Source: Flavobacterium sp. 9 (GTDB lineage: Bacteria; Bacteroidota; Bacteroidia; Flavobacteriales; Flavobacteriaceae). Taken from it: 64,000 nucleotides of DNA. The translations under genes were made by a program, and so were the position numbers. Positions 5,015 to 55,432 of the stretch are shown here, in pieces. The stretch is from positions 3,906,001-3,970,000 of the forward strand of contig NZ_PEEU01000001.1 of assembly GCF_002754195.1 (NCBI RefSeq). The letters are read 5' to 3'. How positions within the stretch are numbered: the stretch's first letter is position 1; each line of letters opens with the position of its first letter. The notes below the pieces were generated by a model. The model was not told where the DNA came from, ran no database searches, and saw nothing but the letters and a program-made list of their open reading frames with translations.

Positions 5015-8000
5015 CATTACTTTTAGAACCCCTAAGTTTTTTAGGTTAATTTTTATTGCTTCATTATTTTTACTAAATACCACTTTATCTTTTGCACAAG
5101 TCTGTGGGACTCCCGGAGCAGATGGACCAATAAATGTTTCGACATCGATAAATACATATTATCCAATAACAGGAACACTGAATTTAGCAAAAGGTGCAAA
5201 AACAATTGCGTTAACTGCAGTTCCGGCAACAGATAGTCACGGTAATAATTTTGGCGGAACTCAAATTTCATCCGGAGATTTGGTTTTAATTATCCAAATG
5301 CAGGATGCAACCATAGATTATAGTAATAATCCAAGTTATGGTTCAGGAAGCTCAACTTCTGGAATTGATAATTTGGGAGGTACCGGATTTACCAATTTAG
5401 GAAATACAGGAATCTATGAATATGTTATAGCAACGAGTAATGTACCTCTGACCGGAGGGACTTTAACGTTTATTGGAACCGGTACTGGAGGTGGTGCATT
5501 GAATGATTATTTTAATGCTGCTCCAACAACAACTAGCGGTAAAAAGACTTTTCAGATTATTCGTGTACCTCAATTTTCAAATTTAACTCTTAACTCTAAT
5601 ATTACAACGCCACCATTTAATGGTTTTGCCGGAGGAATTATTGCTTTTAATGTTTCTGGAACTTTTAACTTTAATGGATTCAATATTGACGGATCTGCCA
5701 GAGGTTTTAGAGGAGGTTACAGCCCTGTAGCGACAACAAATGCAAATAATTCAACTATCTACGTAGATAATTCAACGAATAGCGTAGTTTCAGGAAAAGG
5801 AGAAGGTATTGCCGGAACACCACGATATATGTGGGACGGTTTTAATCAGGTAAATAATGGAGTTGAAGGTATGCCGGGAGGATCTGCCGGTAGAGGAGCC
5901 CCAGCAAATGCTGGTGGTGGTGGAAATGATCACAACTCCGGAGGTGGAGGTGGTGGAAATGGTGGATATGGTGGTTTAGGTGGATTAGGCTGGCAAGGTG
6001 GCGGAGGAGACGTTAGTCCCTTAAACGGAGGTGGCCGACCAGGATATACTTCATATCTAACTGCAACACCATTGCTTACCCGTCTTGTTATGGGAGGTGG
6101 TGGTGGAGCCGGTGATGCCAATAACGCTGTAAATGGTGTAAAAGGTGGAGTTGGAGGAGCTATAATTTTGATTAATGCCGGTTCAATACAAGGATCAGGA
6201 AATATTTATGCAAATGGAGGTGTGGGAGCCGCCGGTACTTATTCAGGTGCGCCTGATGGAGCCGGAGGTGGTGGAGCCGGAGGAAGTGTTTTTCTAAATA
6301 TTTCGAATAATAGTACCACCACAATTAATATTGAGGCAAAAGGTGGAAATGGAGGAAATACATTAAATGACGAAAATAATTCACACGGACCCGGTGGTGG
6401 TGGTGGTGGTGGAATAATTAGATATAATGTTCCGGGATCAGGAGTTACGATTAATACTTCTGTAATTAATGGAACTTCTGGAGTAACAGCTGATAATAAG
6501 GACCATGGTGCTCAACCAGGAACTCCAGGTTATGTATCTGCTTTTAGTTCAAGTGATATGCCTTCTGAATTGCAGATTAATTCTAATTGTTTAGCTTCAC
6601 TTTCTACAAAAGTAAATTCAATAAATAAATCGCTATGCAATACAATTGATGCAACAGTTACTTACGAAATAGAAATAACAAATTTAGGAAGTGGAAATGC
6701 TGCACAAGTAAATTTAAATTATCTGTTTCCTACTGGGATAAATTTTGATTCTGCAACAGCAACTTATACACTTAATGCTTCTGGACCAACAGGCTCAATG
6801 GCAAATACAGGTACAGCAAATAGCCCTATTGTTGGAGGTTTCAATATTCCTTTGAATGGAGTTGTTAAAATTACGCTTATCGGAAAAGTTGCAGCTGCTA
6901 TGACGCCAGGTACTACTTATAGTTCGAAAGCTCAAGCTTTATATTTGGATCCAACACGAACAATAGCAGATCCAACGAGAAGAATTACACCGTTTACAAA
7001 TTCTTTCGGAACTGTTAATACAACTTATCAAACAGGGGGAGGATTAAATGTTGGAGGAACCAATTTTGATGGTACTTCAAAAACGGAAGATGATGTACTC
7101 ATAATAGCATCTCCTGGAACTCCATCAATTTCAGCAAGTGGTCCAATAACATTTTGTGCAGGTGGAAGCGTTGTTTTGACTTCAACTGTGGGAACCGGTT
7201 ACCTTTGGTCAACAGGAGCTACAACTCAAGCCATAACAGTAACAACTTCTGGTACTTATACAGTTAAGGTGTCTAATGCTTCCGGATGCTATAGTGCATC
7301 TTCAGCAGGCACAACAGTTACCGCGAATTCATTGCCAACAGCTTATAATGTTACAGGAGGAGGATCATATTGTGCTGGTGGAACAGGATTTGCAGTTGGA
7401 CTAAGTAATTCTCAAACAGGAGTAAGCTATCAATTACAATTAGGAGGAGTTAATGATGGAACTGCAGTTACAGGAACTACAGGTTCAGCAATCAGTTTTG
7501 GAACAAAAACAGCTGCTGGAACTTATACTGTTGTTGCAACTAATACCACAACAAGCTGTACTGCAACAATGACAGGCAGTAAAACAATAACCATAAATCC
7601 ATTACCAACAGCTTATACTGTTACGGGTGGCGGAACTTATTGCGCGGGAGGAACAGGATTTCCAATTGGATTAAGTAATTCTCAAACAGGAGTAAGTTAT
7701 CAATTACAATTAGGAGGTACTAATAATGGAACTGCAGTTGCAGGAACTACTGGTTCAGCAATCAGCTTTGGAACAAAAACAGTTGCGGGAACTTATACTG
7801 TGGTTGCAACTAATACAACAACAAGTTGTACTTCATCAATGACTGGGAATGCTGTAATAACTGTAAATCCGTTACCAACAGCTTATACTGTTACCGGAGG
7901 CGGATCTTATTGCGCTGGTGGAACAGGACTTGCAGTTGGACTAAGTAATTCTCAGACCGGAGTAAGTTATCAATTACAATTAGGCGGAGTTAATGATGGA

Positions 8001-11000
8001 ACTGCCGTTACAGGAACTACTGGTTCGGCAATCAGCTTTGGAACAAAAACAGCTGCAGGAACTTATACTGTGGTTGCTACTAATACTACAACAAGCTGTA
8101 CTGTAGCAATGACAGGCAGTAAAACAATAACCATAAATCCATTACCAACAGCTTATGCCGTTACGGGAGGCGGAACTTATTGCGCTGGCGGAACAGGAGT
8201 TGCGGTTGGACTAAGCAATTCACAAACCGGAGTAAGTTATCAATTACAATTAGGAGGAGTGAATGACGGAGCTGCAGTTGCAGGAACTACAGGAACGGCA
8301 ATTAGTTTTGGAACAAGAACAGCTTCGGGAACTTATACTGTGGTTGCAACTAATACAACAACAAGTTGTACTGCACCAATGACAGGCAGCAAAACAATAA
8401 CAATAAATCCTTTACCAACAGCTTATACTGTAACCGGAGGCGGTGCATATTGCGCTGGTGGAACAGGATTTGCAATTGGACTAAGCAATTCTGAAACTGG
8501 AGTAAGCTATCAATTGCAATTAGGAGGAGTGAATGATGGAACTGCAGTTGCAGGAACTACTGGTTCAGCAATCAGCTTTGGAACAAAAACAGCTGCAGGA
8601 ACTTACACTGTGGTTGCAACTAATACCACAACAAGCTGTACTGCAACAATGACAGGCAGTAGAACAATAACCATAAATCCATTACCAACAGCTTATACTG
8701 TTACGGGAGGCGGGGCATATTGCGCTGGTGGAGCAGGATTTGCAATTGGACTAAGCAATTCTGAAACTGGAGTAAGCTATCAATTACAATTAGGAGGAGT
8801 GAATGACGGAACTGCAGTTGCAGGAACTACAGGAACAGCAATCAACTTTGGAACAAAAACAGCTGCAGGAACTTATACTGTGGTTGCCACTAATGCTACA
8901 ACAAGTTGTACTGCACCAATGACAGGCAGTAAAACAATAACCATAAATCCATTACCAACAGCTTATACAGTTACCGGAGGCGGATCATATTGCGCTGGTG
9001 GAACAGGATTTCCAATTGGATTAAGTAATTCACAAACAGGAGTTAGTTATCAATTACAATTAGGAGGAGTTAATGACGGAACTGCAGTTGGAGGAACTAC
9101 TGGTACAGCAATAAGCTTTGGAACAAAAACAGCTGCGGGAACTTATACAGTGGTTGCAACTAATACAACAACAAGCTGTACTGCAGCAATGACAGGCAGT
9201 GCAACAATAACCATAAATCCATTACCAACAGCTTACAATGTTACCGGTGGAGGAGCTTATTGCGCTGGCGGAACAGGATTTCCAATTGGATTAAGCGATT
9301 CTCAAACTGGAGTAAGTTATCAGTTAAAATTAGGAAGTTCTAATGATGGAGCTGCAGTTGCAGGAACTACAGGAGTAGCAATTAGTTTTGGAACAAAAAC
9401 AGCTGCAGGAACTTATACTGTGGTTGCAACTAATAACACAACAAGCTGTACTGCACCAATGACAGGCAGTAAAACAATAACAGTAAATCCATTACCAACA
9501 GCTTATACTGTAACCGGAGGCGGAACTTATTGCGCTGGTGGAGCAGGATTTGCAATTGGACTAAGCAATTCTGAGACTGGAGTAAGCTATCAATTACAAT
9601 TAGCAGGAGTGAATGACGGAGCTGCAGTTGCAGGAACTACCGGTACTGCAATTAGTTTTGGAACAAAAACAGCTGCTGGAACTTATACTGTGGTTGCCAC
9701 TAATACTACAACAAGCTGTACTGCACCAATGACAGGTAGTAAAGCAATAACAATAAATCCATTACCGGCAATACCAGTTACTTCTTTAACGCAACCTAAC
9801 TGTACTACATTAACTGGTTCTATTACAGTTACAGTACAGGATCCGTTAGAGACTTATAGTTTTGATAATGGGCAAAATTTTCAGTCTGGTAATTCAAAAT
9901 CAGGATTAGCACCAGGTAGTTATGATGTGATTATTCAGAATACATCGGGATGTAACTCACCTAAAAAAACAGTTACGATTGATGTAAAACCAAATTGTCC
10001 TCCAGTAGCCATTGACGATACAGCAACTGCAACCGAAGATACACTTTTCACCTCAACTGTAAGCCTTGTGGCGAATGATACCGATGTTGATTCAAGCCCA
10101 CTCACAGTAGTAGCTGGAACTTACACTACATTGAAAGGCGGAACCTTGACTTTAGCGGCAGACGGATCTTATACTTATATGCCGGCAGCGAACTTTAATG
10201 GAACTGATACAGTAGATTATACAGTTACTGACGGAAGCCTAACTGATATTGGAACACTTACAATCACAGTAAATGCTGTAAACGATGCACCAATTGCAGT
10301 TGACGATACAGCAACCGCTACAGAAGATACTTTATACACCTCAACTATAAGCCTTGTGGCGAATGATACCGATGTAGATTCAAGCCCACTTACAGTAGTA
10401 GCTGGAACTTACACTACATTGAAAGGCGGAACCTTGACTTTAGCGGCAGACGGATCTTATACTTATATGCCGGCAGCGAACTTTAATGGAACTGATACAG
10501 TAGATTACACGGTAACTGACGGAAGTTTAACTGATATTGGAACATTAACGATCACAGTAAATGCTGTAAACGATGCTCCAATTGCTGTTGATGATACAGC
10601 CACTGCTACAGAAGACACACTTTTCACATCAAGTATCTCTCTTGTAGCTAATGATACTGATATAGACTCAAGCCCACTGACAGTATTAGCAGGAACTTAT
10701 ACGACAGCAAAAGGCGGAACATTGACTTTAGCTTCAGACGGATCGTATACTTATATGCCGGCTGCAAACTTTAACGGAACAGACACAGTAGATTATACGG
10801 TAACCGATGGAAGTTTAACAGATATCGGAACATTAACCATTACAGTAAACGCTGTAAACGATGCTCCAATTGCGGTTGACGATACTGCAACTGCTACAGA
10901 AGACACGCTTTACACATCAAGCATCTCTCTTGTAGCGAATGATACTGATATAGACTCAAGCCCGCTAACCGTGGTAGCAGGAACTTACACTACAGCAAAA

Positions 11001-14000
11001 GGTGGAACCTTGACTTTAGCTTCAGACGGATCGTATACTTATATGCCGGCTGCAAACTTTAACGGAACTGATACAGTAGATTACACGGTAACCGATGGAA
11101 GTTTAACAGATATTGGAACACTTACTATCACAGTAAATGCTGTAAACGATGCACCAATTGCTGTTGACGATACTGCAACGGCAACCGAAGATACTCTTTA
11201 CACTTCAACAGTAAGCCTTGTAGCTAATGATACAGATGTAGATTCAAGTCCATTAACAGTGGTAGCAGGAACTTACACTACAGCAAAAGGCGGAACCTTG
11301 ACTTTAGCAGCTGACGGATCGTATACTTATATGCCGGCAGCGAACTTTAATGGAACTGATACAGTAGATTATACAGTTACTGACGGAAGTTTAACCGATA
11401 TTGGAACACTTACAATCACAGTAAATGCTGTAAACGATGCACCAATTGCAGTTGACGATACAGCAACCGCTACAGAAGATACTTTATACACCTCAACTAT
11501 AAGCCTTGTGGCGAATGATACCGATGTAGATTCAAGCCCACTTACAGTAGTAGCTGGAACTTACACTACATTGAAAGGCGGAACCTTGACTTTAGCGGCA
11601 GACGGATCTTATACTTATATGCCGGCAGCGAACTTTAATGGAACTGATACAGTAGATTACACGGTAACTGACGGAAGTTTAACTGATATTGGAACATTAA
11701 CGATCACAGTAAATGCTGTAAACGATGCTCCAATTGCTGTTGATGATACAGCCACTGCTACAGAAGATACTTTATACACATCGACAATAAGCCTTGTGGC
11801 TAATGATACCGATGTAGATTCAAGTCCACTAACAGTGGTAGCAGGAACGTATACAACAACTAAAGGCGGAACATTGACTTTAGCGGCAGACGGATCTTAT
11901 ACTTATATGCCAGCTCCGAATTTCAACGGAACAGATACAGTAGATTATACGGTAACTGACGGAAGTTTAACAGATATTGGAACATTAACGATCACAGTAA
12001 ATGCTGTAAATAATGCGCCAATCGCTGTTGATGATACAGCAACTGCAACCGAAGACACCCTTTTCACATCAAGCATCTCTCTTGTTGCTAATGATACCGA
12101 TGTAGATTCAAGCCCGCTGACAGTGGTAGCAGGAACGTTCACAACAACTAAAGGCGGAACACTGACTTTAGCAGCTGATGGATCGTATACTTATATGCCA
12201 GCTCCAAACTTTAACGGAACCGACACGGTAGATTATACAGTTACTGACGGAAGCCTAACTGATATTGGAACACTTACAATCACAGTAAATGCTGTAAATG
12301 ATGCACCAATTGCTGTTGACGATACAGCCACCGCTACAGAAGACACGCTTTACACTTCAACGGTAAGCCTTGTGGCGAATGATACAGATGTAGATTCAAG
12401 TCCATTAACAGTAGTAGCTGGAACTTACACTACAGTGAAAGGCGGAACATTAACTTTAGCGGCAGACGGATCATATACTTATATGCCGGCTGCGAATTTT
12501 AATGGAACTGACTCAGTAGATTACACGGTAACCGATGGAAGTTTAACTGATATTGGAACTTTAACAATCACAGTAAACGCCGTAAACGATGCGCCAGTTG
12601 CTATTGACGATACAGCCACTGCAATTGAAGATACCCTTTACACTTCAACAGTAAGCCTTGTGGCGAATGATACCGATGTAGATTCAAGTCCACTAACAGT
12701 GGTAGCAGGAACGTATACAACAACTAAAGGTGGAACCTTGACTTTAGCGGCGGACGGATCATATACTTATATGCCGGCTCCAAACTTTAATGGAACTGAC
12801 TCAGTAGATTATACCGTAACCGATGGAAGTCTAACCGATATTGGAATATTAACGATCACAGTAAACGCCGTAAACGATGCTCCAATTGCTGTTGACGATA
12901 CAGCCACGGCTACAGAAGACACACTTTACACTTCAAGCATCTCTCTTGTAGCGAATGATACAGATGTAGATTCAAGTCCACTTACAGTAGTAGCAGGAAC
13001 TTATACCACAACTAAAGGCGGAACATTAACCTTAGCTTCAGACGGATCTTATACTTATATGCCGGCTGCAAACTTTAGCGGAACCGACACAGTAGATTAC
13101 ACGGTAACAGATGGAAGTTTAACCGATATTGGAACCTTAACAATCACAGTAAATGCTGTAAACGATGCTCCAATTGCTGTTGATGATACAGCCACTGCTA
13201 CAGAAGACACACTTTTCACATCAAGTATCTCTCTTGTAGCTAATGATACTGATATAGACTCAAGCCCACTGACAGTATTAGCAGGAACTTATACGACAGC
13301 AAAAGGCGGAACATTGACTTTAGCTTCAGACGGATCGTATACTTATATGCCGGCTGCAAACTTTAACGGAACAGACACAGTAGATTATACGGTAACCGAT
13401 GGAAGTTTAACAGATATCGGAACATTAACCATTACAGTAAACGCTGTAAACGATGCTCCAATTGCGGTTGACGATACTGCAACTGCTACAGAAGACACGC
13501 TTTACACATCAAGCATCTCTCTTGTAGCGAATGATACTGATATAGACTCAAGCCCGCTAACCGTGGTAGCAGGAACTTACACTACAGCAAAAGGTGGAAC
13601 CTTGACTTTAGCTTCAGACGGATCGTATACTTATATGCCGGCTGCAAACTTTAACGGAACTGATACAGTAGATTACACGGTAACCGATGGAAGTTTAACA
13701 GATATTGGAACACTTACTATCACAGTAAATGCTGTAAACGATGCACCAATTGCTGTTGACGATACTGCAACGGCAACCGAAGATACTCTTTACACTTCAA
13801 CAGTAAGCCTTGTAGCTAATGATACAGATGTAGATTCAAGTCCATTAACAGTGGTAGCAGGAACTTACACTACAGCAAAAGGCGGAACCTTGACTTTAGC
13901 AGCTGACGGATCGTATACTTATATGCCGGCAGCGAACTTTAATGGAACTGATACAGTAGATTATACAGTTACTGACGGAAGTTTAACCGATATTGGAACA

Positions 14001-17000
14001 CTTACAATCACAGTAAATGCTGTAAACGATGCACCAATTGCAGTTGACGATACAGCAACCGCTACAGAAGATACTTTATACACCTCAACTATAAGCCTTG
14101 TGGCGAATGATACCGATGTAGATTCAAGCCCACTTACAGTAGTAGCTGGAACTTACACTACATTGAAAGGCGGAACCTTGACTTTAGCGGCAGACGGATC
14201 TTATACTTATATGCCGGCAGCGAACTTTAATGGAACTGATACAGTAGATTACACGGTAACTGACGGAAGTTTAACTGATATTGGAACATTAACGATCACA
14301 GTAAATGCTGTAAACGATGCTCCAATTGCTGTTGATGATACAGCCACTGCTACAGAAGATACTTTATACACATCGACAATAAGCCTTGTGGCTAATGATA
14401 CCGATGTAGATTCAAGTCCACTAACAGTGGTAGCAGGAACGTATACAACAACTAAAGGCGGAACATTGACTTTAGCGGCAGACGGATCTTATACTTATAT
14501 GCCAGCTCCGAATTTCAACGGAACAGATACAGTAGATTATACGGTAACTGACGGAAGTTTAACAGATATTGGAACATTAACGATCACAGTAAATGCTGTA
14601 AATAATGCGCCAATCGCTGTTGATGATACAGCAACTGCAACCGAAGACACCCTTTTCACATCAAGCATCTCTCTTGTTGCTAATGATACCGATGTAGATT
14701 CAAGCCCGCTGACAGTGGTAGCAGGAACGTTCACAACAACTAAAGGCGGAACACTGACTTTAGCAGCTGATGGATCGTATACTTATATGCCAGCTCCAAA
14801 CTTTAACGGAACCGACACGGTAGATTATACAGTTACTGACGGAAGCCTAACTGATATTGGAACACTTACAATCACAGTAAATGCTGTAAATGATGCACCA
14901 ATTGCTGTTGACGATACTGCAACTGCAACTGAAGACACTCTTTACACATCAAGCATCTCTCTTGTTGCCAATGATACTGATGTAGATTCAAGCCCGTTAA
15001 CAGTAGTAGCAGGAACATATACAACAACTAAAGGCGGAACCCTGATTTTAGCTTCAGACGGATCATATACCTATATGCCGGCTGCGAACTTTAATGGAAC
15101 TGACACAGTAGATTATACGGTAACCGATGGAAGTTTAACTGATATTGGAACTTTAACAATCACAGTAAACGCTGTAAATGATGCACCAATTGCTGTTGAC
15201 GATACAGCAACAGCTACAGAAGATACCCTTTACACTTCAATCATAAGTCTTGTGGCTAATGATACCGATGTAGATTCAAGCCCATTAACCGTGGTAGCTG
15301 GAACTTACACTACAGTGAAAGGCGGAACATTAACTTTAGCGGCTTACGGATTGTATACTTATATGCCGGCTGCAAACTTTAACGGAACCGACACGGTAGA
15401 TTACACCGTAACTGACGGAAGTCTAACGGATATTGGAACATTAACCATCACAGTAAATGCTGTAAACGATGCGCCAATCGCCGTTGACGATACTGCAACT
15501 GCTACAGAAGATACTTTATACACATCGACAATAAGCCTTGTAGCTAATGATACCGATGTAGATTCAAGTCCATTAACAGTAGTAGCAGGAACTTACACTA
15601 CTGCGAAAGGCGGAACATTGACTTTAGCGGCTGACGGATCGTATACTTATATGCCGGCTCCAAATTTCAACGGAACTGATACAGTAGATTACACCGTAAC
15701 TGACGGAAGTCTAACTGATATTGGAACTTTGACAATAACAGTAACAGCAGTAAACAATGCGCCAATTGCTGTTGACGATACAGCAACGGCTACAGAAGAT
15801 ACCCTTTACACCTCAACTGTAAGCCTTGTGGCGAATGATACCGATGTAGACTCAAGCCCGTTAACAGTAGTAGCAGGAACGTACACCACAACTAAAGGCG
15901 GAACATTAACTTTAGCTGCTGACGGATCGTATACTTATATGCCGGCTCCAAACTTTAATGGAACTGACACTGTAGATTATACCGTAACTGACGGAAGTTT
16001 AACAGATATCGGAACATTGACCATCACAGTAAACGCTGTAAACGATGCACCAATTGCTGTTGACGATACTGCAACTGCAACCGAAGACACGCTTTACACC
16101 TCAACGGTAAGCCTTGTGGCGAATGATACAGATGTAGATTCAAGCCCACTTACAGTAGTAGCTGGAACTTATACGACAACTAAAGGCGGAACATTGACTT
16201 TAGCGGCAGACGGATCCTATACTTATATGCCGGCTGCAAACTTTAGCGGAACCGATACGGTAGACTACACCGTAACTGACGGAAGTTTAACAGATATTGG
16301 AACATTAACCATTACAGTAAATGCTGTAAACGATGCTCCAATTGCTGTTGACGATGTAAATGCAACTAACGAAGACACAACTTTAACTGTTGATGTTGCT
16401 TCCGGAAATAATTTATTAGCAAATGATACCGATGCAGATGGAGATACTTTGACAATTACACAATTTGTAATTGGAACAACAACTTACACAGTTGGAAGTA
16501 CCGCTAACTTAACCGAAGGAGATCTTACAATAAATGCAAACGGCAGTTATGCTTTTGTTCCAAAAGCAGATTATAATGGATCGGTACCAAAAGTAACCTA
16601 CACCGTAACTGATGGAACAACTTCTACTACAGCAAATTTATTTATCACAGTAATTCCGGTTAACGATGCAATTGTGATAAAAGACGATTCTGCAAATTCA
16701 GTTGTAAGTACAAATCAACCAAAAACGATTTTGAATGTTCTTGGAAATGATACTAAAAACGGATTACCAATTGTATCAACTGAAGTAACTATTAAAGAAA
16801 CAGTTTCAGATCCAACAGGAAACATAAAATTAAATCCTGACGGAACAATTGTTCTAAAACCAAATGCGCCATCTGGAACTTATGAATTAACATACCAAGT
16901 TTGTGAATTAAACACAACAAACTGCGGAACAGCTACAGTAAAAATTACTGTTGTTGCACCGGTTATAGATGCAGTTTCTGAAACTACAACTCCAATTAAT

Positions 17001-19802
17001 GGAAGTATTGGAGGAACAACAATATCGCTTATCACAAACGATACCTTAAACGGAGGTTCAGTAGTTATAGGAAACCAAGTTGGTCAGGTTATTTTGACAG
17101 GTATAAATGTCCCAACAGGATTAACTTTAAACGCAGACGGAACAGTAACTGTAGCACCTGGAACTCCAAAAGGAGATTACCAAGTTGAATACAGAATTTG
17201 TGAGGCAAATGATCCAAACAATTGTGATACAGCAATAAGTATTATCGCCGTAACTGGAGCAGATTTAATCTTGAAAGACGATTCTGCAGGTTCAGTAGTA
17301 AGTACAAATCAGCCAAAAACGATATTGAATGTTCTTGGAAATGATACTAAAAATGGATTGCCAATTGTTTCAACAGATGTAACTATTAAAGAAACAGTTT
17401 CAGATCCAACAGGAAACATAAAATTAAATTCTGATGGAACAATTGTTCTAAAACCAAACGCGCCATCTGGAACTTATGAATTAACATATCAGGTTTGTGA
17501 ATTAAACACAACAAACTGCGGAACAGCTACAGTAAAAATTACTGTTGTTGCACCGGTTATCGATGCAGTTTCTGAAACTACAGCTCCAATAAATGGAAAT
17601 ATCGGAGGAACAACAATATCGCTTATTACAAACGATATCTTAAACGGAGGTTCAGTAGTTATAGGAAACCAAGTTGGTCAGGTTATTTTGACAGGTATAA
17701 ATGTCCCAACAGGATTAACTTTAAACGCAGACGGAACAGTAACTGTAGCACCGGGAACTCCAAAAGGAGATTACCAAGTTGAATACAGAATCTGTGAGGC
17801 AAATGATCCAAACAATTGCGACACAGCAATAAGTATTATCGCCGTAACTGGAGCTGATTTAGTCTTAAAAGACGATTCTGCAGGTTCAGTAGTTGGAGTT
17901 AATCATCCGGTAGATGTTTTAAATGTACTTGGAAATGATACTAAAAACGGACAACCAATTGTTTCAACAGATGTAACTATCAAAGAAACAGTTTCAGATC
18001 CAACCGGAAATATTAAATTAAATCCTGACGGAACAATTGTTTTCGGACCAAATGCGCCAGCCGGAACATATGAATTAACATATCAGGTTTGCGAATTAAA
18101 CACGACAAATTGTGCGACAGCAACAGTAACAGTTACCGTTGTTGCTCCAACAATGACAATAACAGCAGATAGCTATTGTTCAAACGATGTTCCTTATGTT
18201 TCCTATAATGTGAAACCGGACAATTTTACGCCAAACAACTTATTGACAATAACATGGATCGACAGCGCGAATAATGTTGTTGCAACACAAACTAACTTGC
18301 CATTAAGCGGAAATATTCTTTGGCCGGGAGCGACTATTGACAGTAATGGAAACGGTTTAGATTGGCCAGGATGGATATTCGCAAACGGACAATGGACAGA
18401 AGGCGTCGACGGATTTGAAAATACAAGACCAAGCGTAACGATGGAATTTTCATTAAATCCAACCGTAAAAGTTGTAGTAAATTATCCTGTAGCAACGGCA
18501 GATTGTAATGCAAGACCTGCATTTATAATTAAAGCTAATGATGATGAAGCAGGACCAATTAATACAAATAAAGAAATAAGTACATCATTGAATATCTTTA
18601 ATAATGATACTTTAAACGGAACAAAATTTAATGCTTCGAATGTTGTTTTAACGACAATTATTCCGAATCCTAATTTAGTTTTAAACGCAGATGGTTCAGT
18701 AGATCTTGTACCAAAAACACCTTCAGGAACGTATCACTTAACATATCAAATTTGTGATGCTGTAAATCCACGTAGTTGTAGTCAGGCAGTTGTTACTGTT
18801 ACCGTATTAAATTCATTAGATCCGGATCCGCCAGTAGTAACACCACTTATTCTAACGAATGATAAAATAAATGTTGATGGAATAAATGGAGAATTAGAAT
18901 TCATAAATGTCTTGGATAATGATTTATTAAATGGATTACCAATTAAGATAGCCGATGTTGTATTTACACCTACTACAAGTCCATATTTCGAATTTAATGT
19001 AGATGGAACAGTAAACGTGAAACCAAACACGCCAGGCGGAGATTATACACTGACTTATCAAGTTTGTGAAAAAGCAAATTCACAAAATTGTAAAACAGGA
19101 ACATTAAATGTTTTCGTTGAAGTTCCGTCAATTGCAATTATTAAAACAGCTTCGTTTAACGACGAAAATGGAGATAAAGTTGCAGAAGCCGGAGAAAGCA
19201 TTACTTATAAATTCAAAATAACAAATACAGGTAATGTCGCTTTAACGCAAGTTATGATTAAGGATCTTTTACCGGGAATTGTAATCTCCGGACAAGCAAT
19301 TGATTTGGATCCAAATCAGTCTGATGAAACAAACTTTACCGCAGAATACAAAATAACACAAAATGATATCAACCACGGAAGTGTTACAAATCAGGCAAGT
19401 GTTGAAGGAAAAAGCGGAAAAGGAGTTGTAGTTGGAGATACATCTGATAAGGAAAATAATGCAGAAGACAGACCTACAGTTATCGCATTGAATGGATGTG
19501 AGATAAAAGTCTTCAATGCTTTTTCTCCAAACGGAGATGCAAAAAATGCAAGATTCTATATTCAGGGATTAGAATGTTATCCTGACAATACAGTCGAGAT
19601 ATACAACCGTTGGGGAGTATTGGTTTATGATACTACTAATTATAATAATGAAGACAGAGTTTTTGTTGGAATCTCAGAAGGACGTACAACTGTAAAACAA
19701 TCAGATGGTCTGCCGGTAGGAACCTATTTTTATATATTGAAATATAAAGACAGCGGCTCAAACCAACATGAATTATCAGGATACTTATACATTAATAAAT
19801 AA
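5007..19802 (+). CDS. Giant repeat adhesin with T9SS gliding-type C-terminal domain
   Basis: A 4931-residue predicted cell-surface protein. In order: Sec signal peptide (1-31, cleavage after SFAQ); glycine-rich segment (about 288-471); a DUF11-like and an Ig-like domain; nine 90-residue repeats (about 776-1585), each with a YCAGG and an SCT cysteine; one SprB-like repeat; 22 units of exactly 96 residues (about 1667-3778) of the tandem-95/cadherin-like type, rich in Asp and without Cys, likely calcium-binding; one divergent unit; repeats of 198 residues; a DUF11-like domain (from about 4709); and a type B, gliding-motility-associated C-terminal domain from about 4830 (FNAFSPNGD, YNRWG, LPVGTYFY). 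Family knowledge says such domains target secretion through T9SS with an SprF partner, and one is encoded next door. A role in adhesion or gliding like SprB is inference. No Shine-Dalgarno is visible at the ATG. Confidence 0.9.
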   Translation: MRNITFRTPKFFRLIFIASLFLLNTTLSFAQVCGTPGADGPINVSTSINTYYPITGTLNLAKGAKTIALTAVPATDSHGNNFGGTQISSGDLVLIIQMQDATIDYSNNPSYGSGSSTSGIDNLGGTGFTNLGNTGIYEYVIATSNVPLTGGTLTFIGTGTGGGALNDYFNAAPTTTSGKKTFQIIRVPQFSNLTLNSNITTPPFNGFAGGIIAFNVSGTFNFNGFNIDGSARGFRGGYSPVATTNANNSTIYVDNSTNSVVSGKGEGIAGTPRYMWDGFNQVNNGVEGMPGGSAGRGAPANAGGGGNDHNSGGGGGGNGGYGGLGGLGWQGGGGDVSPLNGGGRPGYTSYLTATPLLTRLVMGGGGGAGDANNAVNGVKGGVGGAIILINAGSIQGSGNIYANGGVGAAGTYSGAPDGAGGGGAGGSVFLNISNNSTTTINIEAKGGNGGNTLNDENNSHGPGGGGGGGIIRYNVPGSGVTINTSVINGTSGVTADNKDHGAQPGTPGYVSAFSSSDMPSELQINSNCLASLSTKVNSINKSLCNTIDATVTYEIEITNLGSGNAAQVNLNYLFPTGINFDSATATYTLNASGPTGSMANTGTANSPIVGGFNIPLNGVVKITLIGKVAAAMTPGTTYSSKAQALYLDPTRTIADPTRRITPFTNSFGTVNTTYQTGGGLNVGGTNFDGTSKTEDDVLIIASPGTPSISASGPITFCAGGSVVLTSTVGTGYLWSTGATTQAITVTTSGTYTVKVSNASGCYSASSAGTTVTANSLPTAYNVTGGGSYCAGGTGFAVGLSNSQTGVSYQLQLGGVNDGTAVTGTTGSAISFGTKTAAGTYTVVATNTTTSCTATMTGSKTITINPLPTAYTVTGGGTYCAGGTGFPIGLSNSQTGVSYQLQLGGTNNGTAVAGTTGSAISFGTKTVAGTYTVVATNTTTSCTSSMTGNAVITVNPLPTAYTVTGGGSYCAGGTGLAVGLSNSQTGVSYQLQLGGVNDGTAVTGTTGSAISFGTKTAAGTYTVVATNTTTSCTVAMTGSKTITINPLPTAYAVTGGGTYCAGGTGVAVGLSNSQTGVSYQLQLGGVNDGAAVAGTTGTAISFGTRTASGTYTVVATNTTTSCTAPMTGSKTITINPLPTAYTVTGGGAYCAGGTGFAIGLSNSETGVSYQLQLGGVNDGTAVAGTTGSAISFGTKTAAGTYTVVATNTTTSCTATMTGSRTITINPLPTAYTVTGGGAYCAGGAGFAIGLSNSETGVSYQLQLGGVNDGTAVAGTTGTAINFGTKTAAGTYTVVATNATTSCTAPMTGSKTITINPLPTAYTVTGGGSYCAGGTGFPIGLSNSQTGVSYQLQLGGVNDGTAVGGTTGTAISFGTKTAAGTYTVVATNTTTSCTAAMTGSATITINPLPTAYNVTGGGAYCAGGTGFPIGLSDSQTGVSYQLKLGSSNDGAAVAGTTGVAISFGTKTAAGTYTVVATNNTTSCTAPMTGSKTITVNPLPTAYTVTGGGTYCAGGAGFAIGLSNSETGVSYQLQLAGVNDGAAVAGTTGTAISFGTKTAAGTYTVVATNTTTSCTAPMTGSKAITINPLPAIPVTSLTQPNCTTLTGSITVTVQDPLETYSFDNGQNFQSGNSKSGLAPGSYDVIIQNTSGCNSPKKTVTIDVKPNCPPVAIDDTATATEDTLFTSTVSLVANDTDVDSSPLTVVAGTYTTLKGGTLTLAADGSYTYMPAANFNGTDTVDYTVTDGSLTDIGTLTITVNAVNDAPIAVDDTATATEDTLYTSTISLVANDTDVDSSPLTVVAGTYTTLKGGTLTLAADGSYTYMPAANFNGTDTVDYTVTDGSLTDIGTLTITVNAVNDAPIAVDDTATATEDTLFTSSISLVANDTDIDSSPLTVLAGTYTTAKGGTLTLASDGSYTYMPAANFNGTDTVDYTVTDGSLTDIGTLTITVNAVNDAPIAVDDTATATEDTLYTSSISLVANDTDIDSSPLTVVAGTYTTAKGGTLTLASDGSYTYMPAANFNGTDTVDYTVTDGSLTDIGTLTITVNAVNDAPIAVDDTATATEDTLYTSTVSLVANDTDVDSSPLTVVAGTYTTAKGGTLTLAADGSYTYMPAANFNGTDTVDYTVTDGSLTDIGTLTITVNAVNDAPIAVDDTATATEDTLYTSTISLVANDTDVDSSPLTVVAGTYTTLKGGTLTLAADGSYTYMPAANFNGTDTVDYTVTDGSLTDIGTLTITVNAVNDAPIAVDDTATATEDTLYTSTISLVANDTDVDSSPLTVVAGTYTTTKGGTLTLAADGSYTYMPAPNFNGTDTVDYTVTDGSLTDIGTLTITVNAVNNAPIAVDDTATATEDTLFTSSISLVANDTDVDSSPLTVVAGTFTTTKGGTLTLAADGSYTYMPAPNFNGTDTVDYTVTDGSLTDIGTLTITVNAVNDAPIAVDDTATATEDTLYTSTVSLVANDTDVDSSPLTVVAGTYTTVKGGTLTLAADGSYTYMPAANFNGTDSVDYTVTDGSLTDIGTLTITVNAVNDAPVAIDDTATAIEDTLYTSTVSLVANDTDVDSSPLTVVAGTYTTTKGGTLTLAADGSYTYMPAPNFNGTDSVDYTVTDGSLTDIGILTITVNAVNDAPIAVDDTATATEDTLYTSSISLVANDTDVDSSPLTVVAGTYTTTKGGTLTLASDGSYTYMPAANFSGTDTVDYTVTDGSLTDIGTLTITVNAVNDAPIAVDDTATATEDTLFTSSISLVANDTDIDSSPLTVLAGTYTTAKGGTLTLASDGSYTYMPAANFNGTDTVDYTVTDGSLTDIGTLTITVNAVNDAPIAVDDTATATEDTLYTSSISLVANDTDIDSSPLTVVAGTYTTAKGGTLTLASDGSYTYMPAANFNGTDTVDYTVTDGSLTDIGTLTITVNAVNDAPIAVDDTATATEDTLYTSTVSLVANDTDVDSSPLTVVAGTYTTAKGGTLTLAADGSYTYMPAANFNGTDTVDYTVTDGSLTDIGTLTITVNAVNDAPIAVDDTATATEDTLYTSTISLVANDTDVDSSPLTVVAGTYTTLKGGTLTLAADGSYTYMPAANFNGTDTVDYTVTDGSLTDIGTLTITVNAVNDAPIAVDDTATATEDTLYTSTISLVANDTDVDSSPLTVVAGTYTTTKGGTLTLAADGSYTYMPAPNFNGTDTVDYTVTDGSLTDIGTLTITVNAVNNAPIAVDDTATATEDTLFTSSISLVANDTDVDSSPLTVVAGTFTTTKGGTLTLAADGSYTYMPAPNFNGTDTVDYTVTDGSLTDIGTLTITVNAVNDAPIAVDDTATATEDTLYTSSISLVANDTDVDSSPLTVVAGTYTTTKGGTLILASDGSYTYMPAANFNGTDTVDYTVTDGSLTDIGTLTITVNAVNDAPIAVDDTATATEDTLYTSIISLVANDTDVDSSPLTVVAGTYTTVKGGTLTLAAYGLYTYMPAANFNGTDTVDYTVTDGSLTDIGTLTITVNAVNDAPIAVDDTATATEDTLYTSTISLVANDTDVDSSPLTVVAGTYTTAKGGTLTLAADGSYTYMPAPNFNGTDTVDYTVTDGSLTDIGTLTITVTAVNNAPIAVDDTATATEDTLYTSTVSLVANDTDVDSSPLTVVAGTYTTTKGGTLTLAADGSYTYMPAPNFNGTDTVDYTVTDGSLTDIGTLTITVNAVNDAPIAVDDTATATEDTLYTSTVSLVANDTDVDSSPLTVVAGTYTTTKGGTLTLAADGSYTYMPAANFSGTDTVDYTVTDGSLTDIGTLTITVNAVNDAPIAVDDVNATNEDTTLTVDVASGNNLLANDTDADGDTLTITQFVIGTTTYTVGSTANLTEGDLTINANGSYAFVPKADYNGSVPKVTYTVTDGTTSTTANLFITVIPVNDAIVIKDDSANSVVSTNQPKTILNVLGNDTKNGLPIVSTEVTIKETVSDPTGNIKLNPDGTIVLKPNAPSGTYELTYQVCELNTTNCGTATVKITVVAPVIDAVSETTTPINGSIGGTTISLITNDTLNGGSVVIGNQVGQVILTGINVPTGLTLNADGTVTVAPGTPKGDYQVEYRICEANDPNNCDTAISIIAVTGADLILKDDSAGSVVSTNQPKTILNVLGNDTKNGLPIVSTDVTIKETVSDPTGNIKLNSDGTIVLKPNAPSGTYELTYQVCELNTTNCGTATVKITVVAPVIDAVSETTAPINGNIGGTTISLITNDILNGGSVVIGNQVGQVILTGINVPTGLTLNADGTVTVAPGTPKGDYQVEYRICEANDPNNCDTAISIIAVTGADLVLKDDSAGSVVGVNHPVDVLNVLGNDTKNGQPIVSTDVTIKETVSDPTGNIKLNPDGTIVFGPNAPAGTYELTYQVCELNTTNCATATVTVTVVAPTMTITADSYCSNDVPYVSYNVKPDNFTPNNLLTITWIDSANNVVATQTNLPLSGNILWPGATIDSNGNGLDWPGWIFANGQWTEGVDGFENTRPSVTMEFSLNPTVKVVVNYPVATADCNARPAFIIKANDDEAGPINTNKEISTSLNIFNNDTLNGTKFNASNVVLTTIIPNPNLVLNADGSVDLVPKTPSGTYHLTYQICDAVNPRSCSQAVVTVTVLNSLDPDPPVVTPLILTNDKINVDGINGELEFINVLDNDLLNGLPIKIADVVFTPTTSPYFEFNVDGTVNVKPNTPGGDYTLTYQVCEKANSQNCKTGTLNVFVEVPSIAIIKTASFNDENGDKVAEAGESITYKFKITNTGNVALTQVMIKDLLPGIVISGQAIDLDPNQSDETNFTAEYKITQNDINHGSVTNQASVEGKSGKGVVVGDTSDKENNAEDRPTVIALNGCEIKVFNAFSPNGDAKNARFYIQGLECYPDNTVEIYNRWGVLVYDTTNYNNEDRVFVGISEGRTTVKQSDGLPVGTYFYILKYKDSGSNQHELSGYLYINK
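7331..9760 (+). repeat. Nine 270-bp tandem repeats in the adhesin gene
   Basis: Spacing between successive LPTAY segments is exactly 270 bases, giving nine units without any length change. Each 90-residue unit reads roughly LPTAYxVTGGGxYCAGG, then VSYQLQLGG, then SFGTKTAAGTYTVVATN and TTSCT. The two cysteines are kept in every unit. Units differ by scattered substitutions. Confidence 0.95.
10551..12325 (+). repeat. Copy A of a 1775-bp identical direct repeat
   Basis: Reading base by base, this segment appears identical to 13143-14917, an offset of 2592 bases or nine repeat units. It spans slightly more than six units (units 3-8 correspond to units 12-17). Immediately outside both ends the copies differ at many synonymous sites. 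Confidence 0.85.
13143..14917 (+). repeat. Copy B of the 1775-bp identical direct repeat
   Basis: Second copy of the block at 10551-12325. The units before (9-11) and after (18) it are not copies of the corresponding flanks of copy A, so it is an internal block replacement or duplication rather than a whole-array tandem duplication. Confidence 0.85.
16680..18140 (+). repeat. Repeats of 594 bp in the adhesin C-terminal part
   Basis: AAAGACGATTCTGCA recurs at 16680, 17274 and 17868, a spacing of exactly 594 bases (198 codons). The first two units are near-identical in DNA over their full length; the third matches only over its first half (to about NTTNCATATV) before diverging. Each full unit has two subdomains, each ending in a Cys-containing strand (YQVCELNTTNC and YRICEANDPNNC). 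Confidence 0.9.
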
Positions 19803-19854: not shown

Positions 19855-20766
19855 ATGAAAAAACTAGCTTTAATTTTTGTGTTTTTTTCTATTGTATGTA
19901 ACGCACAACAAGACGCGCAGTTTACACAATATATGTACAACACCATTGCAATAAACCCCGCTTATGCAGGTTCGCGCGGAGTATTAAGTGTTTTTGGTTT
20001 GTATCGTACACAATGGATTGGACTTGACGGAGCACCAGAAACAAGTACATTTTCAATCAATACACCTTTAAATAATAGTAATTTGGGATTGGGAGTTTCT
20101 TTGGTAAATGATAAAATCGGACCAACAAACGAAAACACATTGTCGGCAGATTTATCGTATAGTATTCCAACTTCAGAAAAATTTAAATTGTCATTTGGAT
20201 TAAAAGCAACAGCCAACCTTTTCAATTTGGATGTAACTAAATTAACTTATGAAAATCAAGGTGATCCACAATTCCAGGATTTAAATAATAAGTTTACACC
20301 AAATATTGGAGCCGGAGTTTATTGGCATTCAGATCAGGCTTATATTGGATTATCAGTGCCAAATTTTATCCAAACCAATAGATATGATGATAACGATGTT
20401 GCTATTTTCAAAGACAAAATCAACTACTATTTTATGGCAGGTTACGTCTTTAATTTAGACCATTTAGAGTATATAAAATTCAAGCCAGCCCTATTAACAA
20501 AAATGGTTGAAGGAGCACCTTTGCAAGTAGATGTTTCAGGAAATTTTATGTTTAATGATAAATTTGTTGTAGGACTTGCTTATCGTTGGAGCGCTTCAGT
20601 AAGTGCAATGGCAGGTTTTCAGGTTTCAAAAGGAATGTATATAGGATACGGTTACGATCATGAAACTACCAACTTAAGAAGATACAATTCAGGATCACAT
20701 GAGATTTTCCTTCGTTTTGAATTTTTCCATAATTACAGCAGACTTACATCACCAAGATTCTTTTAA
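19855..20766 (+). CDS. PorP/SprF family type IX secretion membrane protein
   Basis: A 303-residue outer-membrane beta-barrel with a signal peptide (about 1-18, ending CNAQ). The family signature is visible after the cleavage site: QDAQFTQYMYN, then INPAYAGSRG, then the RTQW segment. Proteins of this family (SprF in Flavobacterium johnsoniae, PorP in Porphyromonas) are needed for secretion or attachment of T9SS clients with type B C-terminal domains. Here it follows the giant client directly and precedes an OmpA-type protein, so it is most likely the dedicated partner of the adhesin. I do not call it sprF because several paralogues exist per genome; another one is at 56.6 kb. Confidence 0.88.
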   Translation: MKKLALIFVFFSIVCNAQQDAQFTQYMYNTIAINPAYAGSRGVLSVFGLYRTQWIGLDGAPETSTFSINTPLNNSNLGLGVSLVNDKIGPTNENTLSADLSYSIPTSEKFKLSFGLKATANLFNLDVTKLTYENQGDPQFQDLNNKFTPNIGAGVYWHSDQAYIGLSVPNFIQTNRYDDNDVAIFKDKINYYFMAGYVFNLDHLEYIKFKPALLTKMVEGAPLQVDVSGNFMFNDKFVVGLAYRWSASVSAMAGFQVSKGMYIGYGYDHETTNLRRYNSGSHEIFLRFEFFHNYSRLTSPRFF

Positions 20767-20778
20767 TTGATTTAAAAT

Positions 20779-22782
20779 ATGATGATTAAAAAACTATTAT
20801 ATTCCTTTTTGTTCTTTAGCATTTTTTTCGCAGCAAATGCCCAAACTGCAAGTATAGCAAATGCAGATAAAAAATACGATAATTACGCTTACGCGGATGC
20901 AATAAAAGCCTACGAAAAGTTAGTTAAAAAAGGAGTTAGAGACGAAAAAGTATTTCAAAGATTAGGGAATTCCTATTATCTTATTGGAGAATTACAACAA
21001 GCTTTAAAATACTATCAGGAATTATATATCCTTAATGAAAATCAGGAACCAGAGTATTTGTATAAATATGCTCAATGTTTGAAATCAGAAGGAAATTATA
21101 CACAATCAGATGAAATTTTGGAAAAACTCATTCAAAAAGCACCATCAGATAAAAGAGGTATCCTATTCGCAAATAATAAAAATTATTTAGAAGATATTAA
21201 AGCAAATTCTGGCCGATTTGATATTGCAGATGCCGGAATTAATTCAAAAGATTCAGATTACGGAAGTACTATTTTAGATAATAAACTAGTATTTACATCT
21301 GCCAGAGATACCGGTTCAATAGTCAAAAAGAATTTTAAATGGACCAATAAAGCAATTTCAACTTTATATTCTGCTGAATTAAGTCCTGACGGAAGTATTG
21401 GAAAACCAATGATATTTCATAAAGAAAATTTAAGAGTCAATTTCAATCAATCGACTCCGGTTTTTACAAAAGACGGAAGAACAATGTACTTCACCAGAAA
21501 TAATTCTGTAGATGGAAAAAGAAGAGAGAATGAAAAGAAAATTACATTCTTAAAACTTTATAAAGCAACTTTAATAGACGACGAATGGAAAGAAGTTCAG
21601 GAACTTCCTTTTAATAGTGACGAATACAGCGTTGCGCATCCGGCTTTGAGCGTCGATGAAAAAACATTGTATTTTGCATCAGATATGCCAGGAACGCTTG
21701 GAGCTTCGGATATTTTTAAAGTAAGTATAGAAGCTAATGGAAGTTTTGGAAAACCTGAAAATTTAGGTTCGGATATCAATACAGAAGGAAGAGAAACCTT
21801 TCCTTTTATTTCGGCTGAAAATGAACTTTATTTTGCCAGTGATGTAAGACCAGGTTTAGGCGGACTTGATATTTATGTTTCGAAAATAACTAAAGAAGGT
21901 TCTTTTGATGAAGTTCAGAATATTGGAGAACCAATTAATAGTAAACAAGACGATTTTGCTTTTATAATTAACAATAAAAACAGAAACGGTTTTTTCTCTT
22001 CAAATAGAAGTGGTGGTCAAGGATTGGACGATGTTTATCGATTTACAGAAAACCGCAGATTAATTTGCGAACAATCTATATCAGGAACAATTACAGATCA
22101 GGAAACAAACGAAACACTTTCGAATGTTGCTTTAATTTTGTTTGACGAAGCAGGTAAATCTGCCGTTGAAGCAAAATCTGATGCTAACGGAAATTATGTT
22201 TTTTCGAATGTAAAATGCGGAAAGAAATACTTTATCAAAACATCAAAAGAAGATTATTTGTTTAAAGAAGTTTCTGTGACGTTGAAAAAAGCAACAGGTT
22301 CAGTTTCTCTGCCAATAGCTTTAGAAAAGAAACCAAAACCAATAGTAGCAATTCCGGTTGTGATAAAGGCAAGTAATTCTATTAAACCAGTTAAAGTCAA
22401 TATTACTATTGGGACCGATTTAGGAAAATTATTAAAAATTCCGATGAACTTTTTTGATTTAGGAAAAGCTACAATCAAGAAAACATCAGAGCCTCAATTG
22501 CAGAAAATTGTTGATATGCTAAAACAATATCCAAGCATAAAATTAGATATTCGTTCGCATACAGACAGCCGTTCATCGACTGAAAGTAATCAGATTTTAT
22601 CAGACAAAAGAGCAGAATCGACGAAGAATTGGTTGATACAAAAAGGAATCGACGCAAGCCGATTAACAGCAAAAGGATACGGAGAAACACAATTAGTAAA
22701 TAAATGTGCCGATGGTGTAAAATGTACCGAACAAGAACATCAGCAAAACAGACGAAGCGAATTTATAATTGTAAGTCTGTAA
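20779..22782 (+). CDS. OmpA-family protein with TPR and PD40 repeats
   Basis: A 667-residue envelope protein: signal peptide (1-21), TPR-like helical repeats (about 25-160, YAYADAIKAYEKLVKKG and following), WD40/PD40-type beta-propeller repeats (about 170-425, segments such as TLYFASDMPGTLGASDIF), a carboxypeptidase-regulatory-like beta-sandwich (about 430-510), and a C-terminal OmpA peptidoglycan-binding domain (about 555-667) with IRSHTDSR and the NRRSEF motif. In flavobacteria this architecture regularly sits beside SprF-like genes and giant T9SS clients, and PorE in Porphyromonas is built similarly. It probably anchors the secretion/adhesin complex to peptidoglycan. The gap to the SprF-like gene is 12 bases, so the two form one operon. 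Confidence 0.88.
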   Translation: MMIKKLLYSFLFFSIFFAANAQTASIANADKKYDNYAYADAIKAYEKLVKKGVRDEKVFQRLGNSYYLIGELQQALKYYQELYILNENQEPEYLYKYAQCLKSEGNYTQSDEILEKLIQKAPSDKRGILFANNKNYLEDIKANSGRFDIADAGINSKDSDYGSTILDNKLVFTSARDTGSIVKKNFKWTNKAISTLYSAELSPDGSIGKPMIFHKENLRVNFNQSTPVFTKDGRTMYFTRNNSVDGKRRENEKKITFLKLYKATLIDDEWKEVQELPFNSDEYSVAHPALSVDEKTLYFASDMPGTLGASDIFKVSIEANGSFGKPENLGSDINTEGRETFPFISAENELYFASDVRPGLGGLDIYVSKITKEGSFDEVQNIGEPINSKQDDFAFIINNKNRNGFFSSNRSGGQGLDDVYRFTENRRLICEQSISGTITDQETNETLSNVALILFDEAGKSAVEAKSDANGNYVFSNVKCGKKYFIKTSKEDYLFKEVSVTLKKATGSVSLPIALEKKPKPIVAIPVVIKASNSIKPVKVNITIGTDLGKLLKIPMNFFDLGKATIKKTSEPQLQKIVDMLKQYPSIKLDIRSHTDSRSSTESNQILSDKRAESTKNWLIQKGIDASRLTAKGYGETQLVNKCADGVKCTEQEHQQNRRSEFIIVSL

Positions 22783-55003: not shown

Positions 55004-55432
55004 CTATTCCTTGTCTGCGGTTTCATCAACAATTTTATCCGTTGCATCTTCAGTTTTTTCAGCTGCATCTTCAGTTTTTTCAGCTGCATCAACTACAGTT
55101 TCGGCAGCAACCGCTTTAGTTTCTTGAGTAAGATCACTGGCTTTTTCTTTTACCGTGTCAATTACATCACTTAATGAATCAGATGCTTTCTCTACATATT
55201 CGCTCACGATATCTTTTGCCTGATGTGCATATTCTGCAGCGCTTTCAAGTATTGGTTCCGAAGCTTCTTTGGCTTTTGCGAAAGTTTCTTCTGCAAAAGT
55301 CTCAGCTTTTTCTACATAAGGTGCAGCAGCTTCTTTAGCTTGTTCAATAGTAGTTTCTGCCTGATTAGCTAAATCTGTAGCGGTTTCTTTGGCTGAGCCA
55401 AATAAATTCTTGAAAAATGATGTTACTCCCAT
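55004..55432 (-). CDS. Ala/Glu/Lys-rich helical repeat protein (LEA/YtxH-like)
   Basis: A 142-residue, low-complexity protein predicted to be one long amphipathic helix. Segments such as ETATDLANQAETTIEQAKEA and AKEASEPILESAAEYAHQAKDI repeat with roughly 11-residue periodicity, as in LEA-like or apolipoprotein-like stress proteins. The short N-terminus MGVTSFFKNLFGSA may associate with membranes. The C-terminal AAEKTED repeat is encoded by a 21-base tandem DNA repeat (55044-55085). Function unknown; a role in envelope or osmotic stress would suit its position beside mscS but is inference. Confidence 0.7.
   Translation of the reverse strand: MGVTSFFKNLFGSAKETATDLANQAETTIEQAKEAAAPYVEKAETFAEETFAKAKEASEPILESAAEYAHQAKDIVSEYVEKASDSLSDVIDTVKEKASDLTQETKAVAAETVVDAAEKTEDAAEKTEDATDKIVDETADKE
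55044..55085. repeat. 21-bp tandem repeat, two copies
   Basis: A 21-base unit is repeated perfectly head to tail (55044-55064 and 55065-55085), with the first five bases of a third. It encodes two copies of a heptad AEKTEDA, so slippage would change helix length in whole heptads without a frameshift. Confidence 0.8.

Follow-up and report, generated by a model that had tools for sequence, protein, structure and literature searches.

Repeat-containing surface proteins are usually explained by recombination among near-identical DNA repeats, and in the Periscope Proteins change of length is ascribed to recombination between highly identical DNA repeats (PMC8201768, PMC9704523). Here we describe a giant gene of Flavobacterium sp. 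9 whose main repeat array represents another regime, with a uniform protein unit and scrambled DNA. The gene lies in a stretch of 64,000 nucleotides (contig NZ_PEEU01000001.1 of assembly GCF_002754195.1, positions 3,906,001 to 3,970,000 of the forward strand) that we call the window and in whose own numbering all coordinates are given, and its product is a predicted type IX-secreted repeat protein and a likely adhesin. An earlier note, made from the letters of the window, had pointed to an apparently perfect duplication of 1,775 base pairs (bp) within this array, here called the b array; we refer to the two copies as copies A and B, as distinct from the A array of shorter units upstream. Our favoured reading, to which we give a probability of about 0.6, is that the block arose by one recent non-tandem copy through homologous recombination and that short patches are frequently converted elsewhere in the array. 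It is the near linkage equilibrium of the array and the lost orthology of its units, not the block, that we regard as the noteworthy part.

The closest described systems, for which we draw on parts of the cited papers, each resemble the window gene in some respects and depart from it in others. Like the Periscope Proteins, it codes for a predicted bacterial surface protein built of long tandem domain repeats, its length differs between relatives, and intragenic recombination is proposed for it (PMC8201768, PMC9704523). The repeat-number feature of those proteins takes the form here of 22, 14 and 33 b units in three species, represented by one genome each and not by strains. As to repeat identity, six units are repeated exactly and the non-identical pairs differ at a mean of 40 of 288 bases; unlike the highly identical Periscope repeats, most units here are about 14% different in DNA while alike in protein, and only blocks are identical. 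The copying of several units together in the middle of an array recalls multi-domain block duplication (Bjorklund et al. 2006, PMC1553488), although, unlike the internal tandem duplications of that account, the tract is here shorter than its offset and diverged units lie between the copies.

Two further systems offer parallels for the array as a whole. In the spider aciniform silk gene AcSp1, as in the window gene, the repeats of one gene evolve together and there is no unit-by-unit orthology between species (PMC3933166). However, the silk repeats are described there as near-identical within species and different between them, whereas here the diversity within species is about that between species, variants are shared and linkage is local. 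Concerted evolution homogenises the silk DNA; the present array is scrambled without being homogenised. The vlsE system of Borrelia resembles it in the copying of variably sized segments between homologous cassettes to produce mosaics (PMC4534519), but vlsE has one expression site, unexpressed cassettes and protein change, whereas all units here stand in one open frame and their variation is mostly synonymous. The setting of the gene, finally, recalls SprB of F. johnsoniae, a large adhesin and type B type IX substrate with a carrier of the SprF family (PMC12635249): a PorP/SprF-family gene follows the giant gene. In SprF a Cys-X-Cys motif in the C-terminal tail links the protein to the gliding track (PMC12635249), a motif that the carrier here lacks. 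Short-patch shuffling in Flavobacterium adhesin arrays was not found in the titles and abstract openings searched, which left most subscription journals outside their scope.

Loss of unit orthology and a shared pool of alleles

The b units are nearly alike in amino acids and far apart at synonymous positions. The mean proportion of differences is 0.43 at synonymous sites (pS) and 0.037 at nonsynonymous sites (pN), with a ratio of nonsynonymous to synonymous divergence (dN/dS) of about 0.06; these means cover 225 of the 231 unit pairs, the six pairs that join copies A and B being excluded and the zero pairs of units 2, 6 and 15 included. The 22-unit pS matrix agrees with the earlier note in that the other units diverge at synonymous positions. 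As to the earlier note's suggestion of a mechanism for changing the adhesin sequence, the protein is hardly altered, the units being nearly alike in amino acids.

Comparison with the orthologous gene of a sister species (G103) gives a yardstick for this divergence. Over 770 N-terminal codons the synonymous divergence (dS) of the flanks is 0.139, over 620 C-terminal codons it is 0.109, and flank pS is 0.10–0.13. When the counterpart of each of the 22 window b units was sought among the 14 b units of G103, none was found at flank divergence, the nearest unit by base differences lying at pS 0.30–0.51. The units of the A array show the same effect more weakly (nearest G103 unit at pS 0.19–0.29), and the first two of the three 594-bp repeats that follow the arrays lie at pS 0.17 from their nearest G103 repeat. 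Within the window these two differ from each other by pS 0.15 and from the third by about 0.54.

The divergence of the units is as large within species as between them. The mean number of differences per 288 bases is 40.0 within the window (non-identical pairs), 37.3 within G103 and 42.4 between the two; no fixed difference in b units separates any two of the three species, and 54 of the 57 sites that vary in both the G000 and the G103 b units share alleles. The layouts by motif count are 9 A, 22 b and 1 c units in the window gene, 21 A, 14 b and 7 c units in G103, where b and c units are interleaved, and 12 A, 33 b and 6 c units in the third species (G289), each species being represented by a single genome. 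The spacing of A units is 90 amino acids (aa) in 8/8 spacings of the window and in 19/20 of G103. In the A array of G289 (L104+L105) all 12 units are one codon short, with a spacing of 89 aa in 11/11, and we take this one-codon difference in every unit as a sign of concerted evolution.

Linkage between synonymous variants

Within the b units, linkage between variants is largely confined to close neighbours. Among distinct b units (n = 15 in the window, 14 in G103 and 32 in G289) the squared correlation (r2) between different codons is 0.23–0.24 for neighbours and comes near the floor of 1/(n-1) by roughly 8–12 codons in the three species; in G289 it is 0.038–0.046 at 8–40 codons against a floor of 0.032. 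Synonymous variants are near linkage equilibrium within about 25–40 bp in all three. Values within 3 codons exceed all 2000 permutations in the b units of each species, and the correlation of r2 with distance is significant in the b units of the window (2/2000 permutations as low) and of G289 (0/2000). As a control we used synonymous sites of a 400-codon C-terminal flank in 27 species, which are more diverged than the array units are, and obtained r2 of 0.078 within 3 codons and 0.054–0.064 beyond, with a floor of 0.038. Because flank r2 is nearly flat, adjacency alone does not yield the local peak of the arrays.

These data bear on a different history, in which the units are ancient or hypermutable and synonymously saturated and the block is a recent duplication in an array where no patches are shuffled. 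The high mean pS and the failure of whole-unit comparisons to yield orthologous b units would both be expected on that history. The fourfold degenerate columns, however, hold too few nucleotides for it: the mean number per column is 2.29 in the window, 2.05 in G103 and 2.34 in G289, as against 3.14, 2.93 and 3.42 for independent draws, the columns being strongly heterogeneous among themselves. Column-specific allele frequencies correlate at r 0.82–0.83 for each pair of the three species, a value reached in 0/1000 permutations. The fourfold-column statistics rule out mutational saturation as such, and the contrast between local linkage in the arrays and nearly flat linkage in the vertically inherited flanks also speaks against such a history. 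The shared frequencies could instead stem from site-specific selection on synonymous codons, which might mimic part of this evidence; even so, we consider an array of old, saturated and unshuffled units improbable. From the sequences compared, the alleles form a shared pool whose combination into units appears to have been scrambled.

Patch-like differences in near-identical pairs point the same way. Summed over 14 array settings (one G289 sequence entered under two periods), pairs in which a difference is bordered on either side by 70 or more exact bases hold 173 clustered patches as against 81 isolated mismatches. Both versions of the sequence occur elsewhere in phase for 121/173 patches but also for 67/81 single mismatches, as recurrent mutation in saturated units would give; this donor test does not separate copying from recurrent mutation, because single mismatches pass it too, and it is the excess of clustered patches over single differences that is informative. 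Within the window array a likely patch is seen where 10170-10615 is compared with 11322-11767: 3 of 446 positions differ, all inside the 7 bp at 10238-10244.

Near-equilibrium behaviour extends to other arrays, where it appears to be common, not universal. Beyond 120 bp, 19 of the 29 arrays scored (31 listed) lie within 0.02 of the equilibrium floor or below it.

Simulation of short-patch conversion

A plausible explanation is that short tracts are continually copied among the units. We simulated 22 units with copied tracts of mean length T, a mutation rate of 0.02 per conversion and a split at flank divergence, with 6 replicates per T. Tracts of 15–60 bp give a nearest between-species difference of 0.22–0.25 (observed 0.27), a frequency correlation of 0.86–0.88 (observed 0.90) and an excess r2 of at most 0.01 beyond 20 codons, and hence ortholog loss, near-zero distant excess r2 and correlated frequencies together. 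Birth and death of whole units as the sole process was rejected, as its simulation yields a flat excess r2 of 0.21–0.24 and near-identical pairs, unlike the data. Short-patch conversion is likely to be the main process in the array, and under this model we infer a rate of tens of conversions per synonymous mutation.

Several observations weigh against this reading. Tracts of 150 and 400 bp also give ortholog loss and the frequency correlation; simulated tract lengths are discriminated by two measures alone, r2 and how close the nearest unit of the same array is. No single length fits: excess r2 for adjacent codons is 0.17–0.18 observed and 0.088 simulated at 30 bp, while the longer-distance bins fit tracts of 30 bp or less, and the observed neighbour r2 is higher and falls faster than at any simulated length. 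Simulated units are also too alike, with a within-array difference of 0.24–0.27 at 15–60 bp (observed 0.30–0.33) and nearest units within the array at 0.15–0.18 (observed 0.24). Outside the simulation, the correlation of r2 with distance is borderline in the b units of G103 (104/2000 permutations) and not significant in the A units of G289 (230/2000). The patch counts come from overlapping pairs and mostly from G073, which gives 114/173, and G112, and the window's own array gave no patch under the 70-bp rule, the difference at 10238-10244 having 68 bp on its left. Ten of the 29 scored arrays miss the equilibrium floor, four of these ten with mean differences above 0.37 and possibly out of register. 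Lastly, not all repeats are shuffled: the third 594-bp repeat has a clear G103 ortholog at pS 0.09.

The exact 1,775-bp block

Against this scrambled background copies A and B stand out. By exact string comparison 1,775/1,775 bases match, and the run cannot be extended at either end. The offset is 2,592 bp, or nine 288-bp units, so that the perfect identity and the nine-unit offset claimed earlier both hold at base level. Of the 6 matches to the block in the genome, all inside the window gene, only the two copies are full-length at 100%. In 300 shuffles of the codon columns among units, the longest exact run in phase averaged 60 bp and never exceeded 95 bp; with copy B left out the maximum is 78 bp (500 shuffles). 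Two shorter exact runs, of 371 bp and 116 bp, also exceed this null. The 371-bp run, absent from the earlier note, has three copies, and units 2, 6 and 15 are identical. The 1,775-bp and the 371-bp tracts begin and end no more than 45 bp from a unit boundary. A conserved motif for recombination at the block ends was considered, but the 15 distinct units share no identical run longer than 8 bp, and that run is located elsewhere.

Copies A and B show no differences over about 455 synonymous sites, which sets a 95% upper bound on pS of 0.0066. Compared with the flank dS given above, this bound suggests that the copy is younger than about 5–6% of the split from G103, given an equal clock and unless conversion maintains the identity.

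The sequences outside the block indicate what kind of event is required. The 817 bp after the copies (12326-13142 and 14918-15734) are 84.5% identical, which ranks 15/19 among in-phase offsets, and the 549 bp before them (10002-10550 and 12594-13142) are 85.4% identical (rank 13/20), in keeping with the earlier statement that the flanks do not correspond. Plain tandem duplication of nine units as a single event was therefore rejected: one unequal crossover leaves a tract at least as long as its offset, whereas the 1,775-bp match here falls short of its 2,592-bp offset, and the three units left over are at background identity. Either a non-tandem copy or a duplication and a second event must be invoked. 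For contrast, the A array of the orthologous G103 gene holds a 1,393-bp tract with one mismatch at an offset of 1,350 bp, the pattern of a plain tandem duplication.

We prefer a single recent non-tandem event, because one event suffices. The block would have been copied between units by homologous recombination. This was probably either a gene conversion involving a misaligned array, on a sister chromosome or an incoming allele, or a crossover joining two unlike alleles. The main rival is a two-step history: nine units were first duplicated in tandem by an unequal crossover, and a second recombination then removed or replaced several units, among them the final three of the second copy. That such duplications occur is evident from the sister gene, the unit number differs between species, and the offset is an exact number of units, all of which this history would explain; its second event, however, must have erased 817 bp of matching sequence tracelessly, down to the background rank given above. 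We hold it to be a realistic possibility and the less probable of the two. It counts against any firm choice that conversion, crossover between unlike alleles, and tandem duplication then loss all leave the same final sequence, and that the flanks do not discriminate among them. The earlier proposal of a very recent copy of six units, as opposed to simple tandem growth, is supported, while the gene conversion and the crossover that it offered as causes are not told apart by the end product. That the event belongs to a mechanism changing adhesin length is only suggested, by the differing unit numbers of the sister species, as pure conversion leaves length unchanged.

The earlier note had named an assembly artefact as the main alternative, a place that duplication then loss now takes. 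An artefact could be a false second copy, or the erasure of a few real differences by misplaced short reads during polishing; long identical repeats are classic trouble spots, and the judgement here is made from the assembled sequence. Yet the genome is one contig of 6,328,714 bp, a false copy would need two chimeric joins given the diverged units 9-11 between the copies and the differing outer flanks, similar blocks occur in other one-contig genomes, and erasure of a few differences would weaken only the claim of perfection. We regard an artefact as very improbable.

Internal repeats of other giant genes

Blocks of this type are found more widely. For comparison, 55 giant genes or gene regions were taken from 15 genomes of one or two contigs. 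All were either CHU_C hits or related to the window gene, and they were chosen for length and completeness, not at random. Near-exact internal repeats, with mismatches of about 1% or less, reach at least 300 bp in 20/55 and at least 1,000 bp in 10/55. Because 10 of the 55 hold such repeats of 1 kilobase (kb) or more, the 1,775-bp block is, on this comparison of sequences, of an ordinary kind for such genes. Seven of these ten have at least one kilobase tract shorter than its offset, a count that should carry little weight, since this arises trivially in arrays of many identical copies such as L090. That array, in another giant CHU_C gene (L090:874-6082, G057), has seventeen identical copies of a 306-bp unit over 5.2 kb.

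Two other loci are recorded here for their structure. An open frame of 15,869 codons (L101-L103, G073:C1:30400-78600) repeats a 318-bp unit about 64 times, with numerous differences of a patch-like kind between the copies. A frame of 8,214 codons (L058+L059, G000, at 3.0 Mb) has two super-unit arrays (1,731 and 1,767 bp) in which tracts about 99% identical are broken by diverged patches.

The giant gene and its neighbours

The features of the locus are collected in Table 1. The Pfam matches of the giant protein are to Big_9 and bacterial cadherin-like families, and a search of solved structures with one unit gave no match at E 0.001. A CHU_C domain is a mark of type B type IX substrates. The gene has two features of such substrates, a C-terminal CHU_C domain and an adjacent PorP/SprF-family gene, and we predict that its product is secreted by the type IX route and is adhesive; both are worded as predictions because their basis is gene architecture. 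When a Cys-X-Cys motif was sought in the C-terminal tail of the PorP/SprF-family protein no cysteine was found there, the sole cysteine being residue 15, near the N-terminus. The carrier does not have the Cys-X-Cys tail of SprF, and the giant protein is therefore probably not a track-linked gliding adhesin of the SprB type.

The matches listed in a scan of named genomes, from which very near records were possibly excluded, are to Flavobacterium sp. ov086 and, weakly, to Leeuwenhoekiella. Elsewhere in the window there is a perfect 21-bp tandem repeat of 2.3 copies at 55043-55090.

Table 1. Features of the giant gene, its repeat arrays and the adjacent genes (window coordinates; TRF, Tandem Repeats Finder)
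Feature	Position	Strand	Basis or remark
Giant gene, predicted type IX-secreted repeat protein (likely adhesin), 4,931 aa	5007..19802	+	Single open frame; Big_9, Cadherin_5, Cadherin_4 and CHU_C matches
First array (A), 9 units of 270 bp (90 aa)	7326..9766	+	TRF; 9 units by motif
Second array (b), 22 units of 288 bp (96 aa), 15 distinct	10002..16337	+	Unit list and difference matrix
Likely short conversion patch in unit 1	10238..10244	+	Contains all 3 mismatches of the 446-bp match to 11322-11767; its 20-bp surroundings are found again in units 8 and 17
371-bp family, copy 1 (unit 2 and edges)	10245..10615	+	Exact match to the other two copies
Copy A: units 3-8, flanked by the final 27 bp of unit 2 and the initial 20 bp of unit 9	10551..12325	+	Identical to copy B, 1,775 bp
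371-bp family, copy 2 (unit 6 and edges, within copy A)	11397..11767	+	Exact match
Diverged units 9-11 between the copies	12326..13142	+	84.5% identical to the stretch after copy B, the array background
Copy B: units 12-17, flanked by the final 27 bp of unit 11 and the initial 20 bp of unit 18	13143..14917	+	Identical to copy A, 1,775 bp
371-bp family, copy 3 (unit 15 and edges, within copy B)	13989..14359	+	Exact match
Single c-type unit, 111 aa, closes the array	16338..16670	+	Interleaved among b units in the sister species
Three 594-bp (198-aa) repeats	16671..18452	+	Motif positions; 594-bp offsets
CHU_C C-terminal type IX secretion signal domain	19503..19793	+	PF13585, E 6e-24, residues 4833-4929
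PorP/SprF-family outer-membrane protein, likely adhesin carrier	19855..20766	+	PF11751, E 5.4e-95; next gene downstream
OmpA-family protein, also TPR and PD40 matches	20779..22782	+	PF00691, E 1.5e-18

Discussion

We propose that, apart from the block, the b array is shaped by frequent conversion of patches of tens of bp between units, a fine-scale shuffling across the rest of the array that goes beyond the earlier note. The array would then resemble a small population of recombining units, about 20 in number, whose synonymous variants are reshuffled; unit-to-unit orthology with the sister species would be lost as a consequence, and selection would hold the protein unit constant. The 1,775-bp block is a clean snapshot of one recent event in such an array.

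A wider and more speculative proposal, which we consider rather unlikely as a whole, is that each giant type IX adhesin gene of Flavobacterium forms a self-contained recombining population. Patch conversion among 10-80 units would freeze the protein unit and scramble its DNA to equilibrium within tens of bases; because of this scrambling, identical DNA long enough to be prone to deletion would stay rare, and the array would be rebuilt or extended by rare block copies such as the present one. In that case synonymous scrambling would act to stabilise very long arrays, either as an evolved feature or as a self-sustaining one.

The array DNA is likely scrambled faster than related species diverge, and a single genome of this kind carries a readable record of the length and rate of conversion tracts. 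If the reading given here is true, trees of whole units from such arrays may mislead, and the stability of very long repeat genes would become directly testable.

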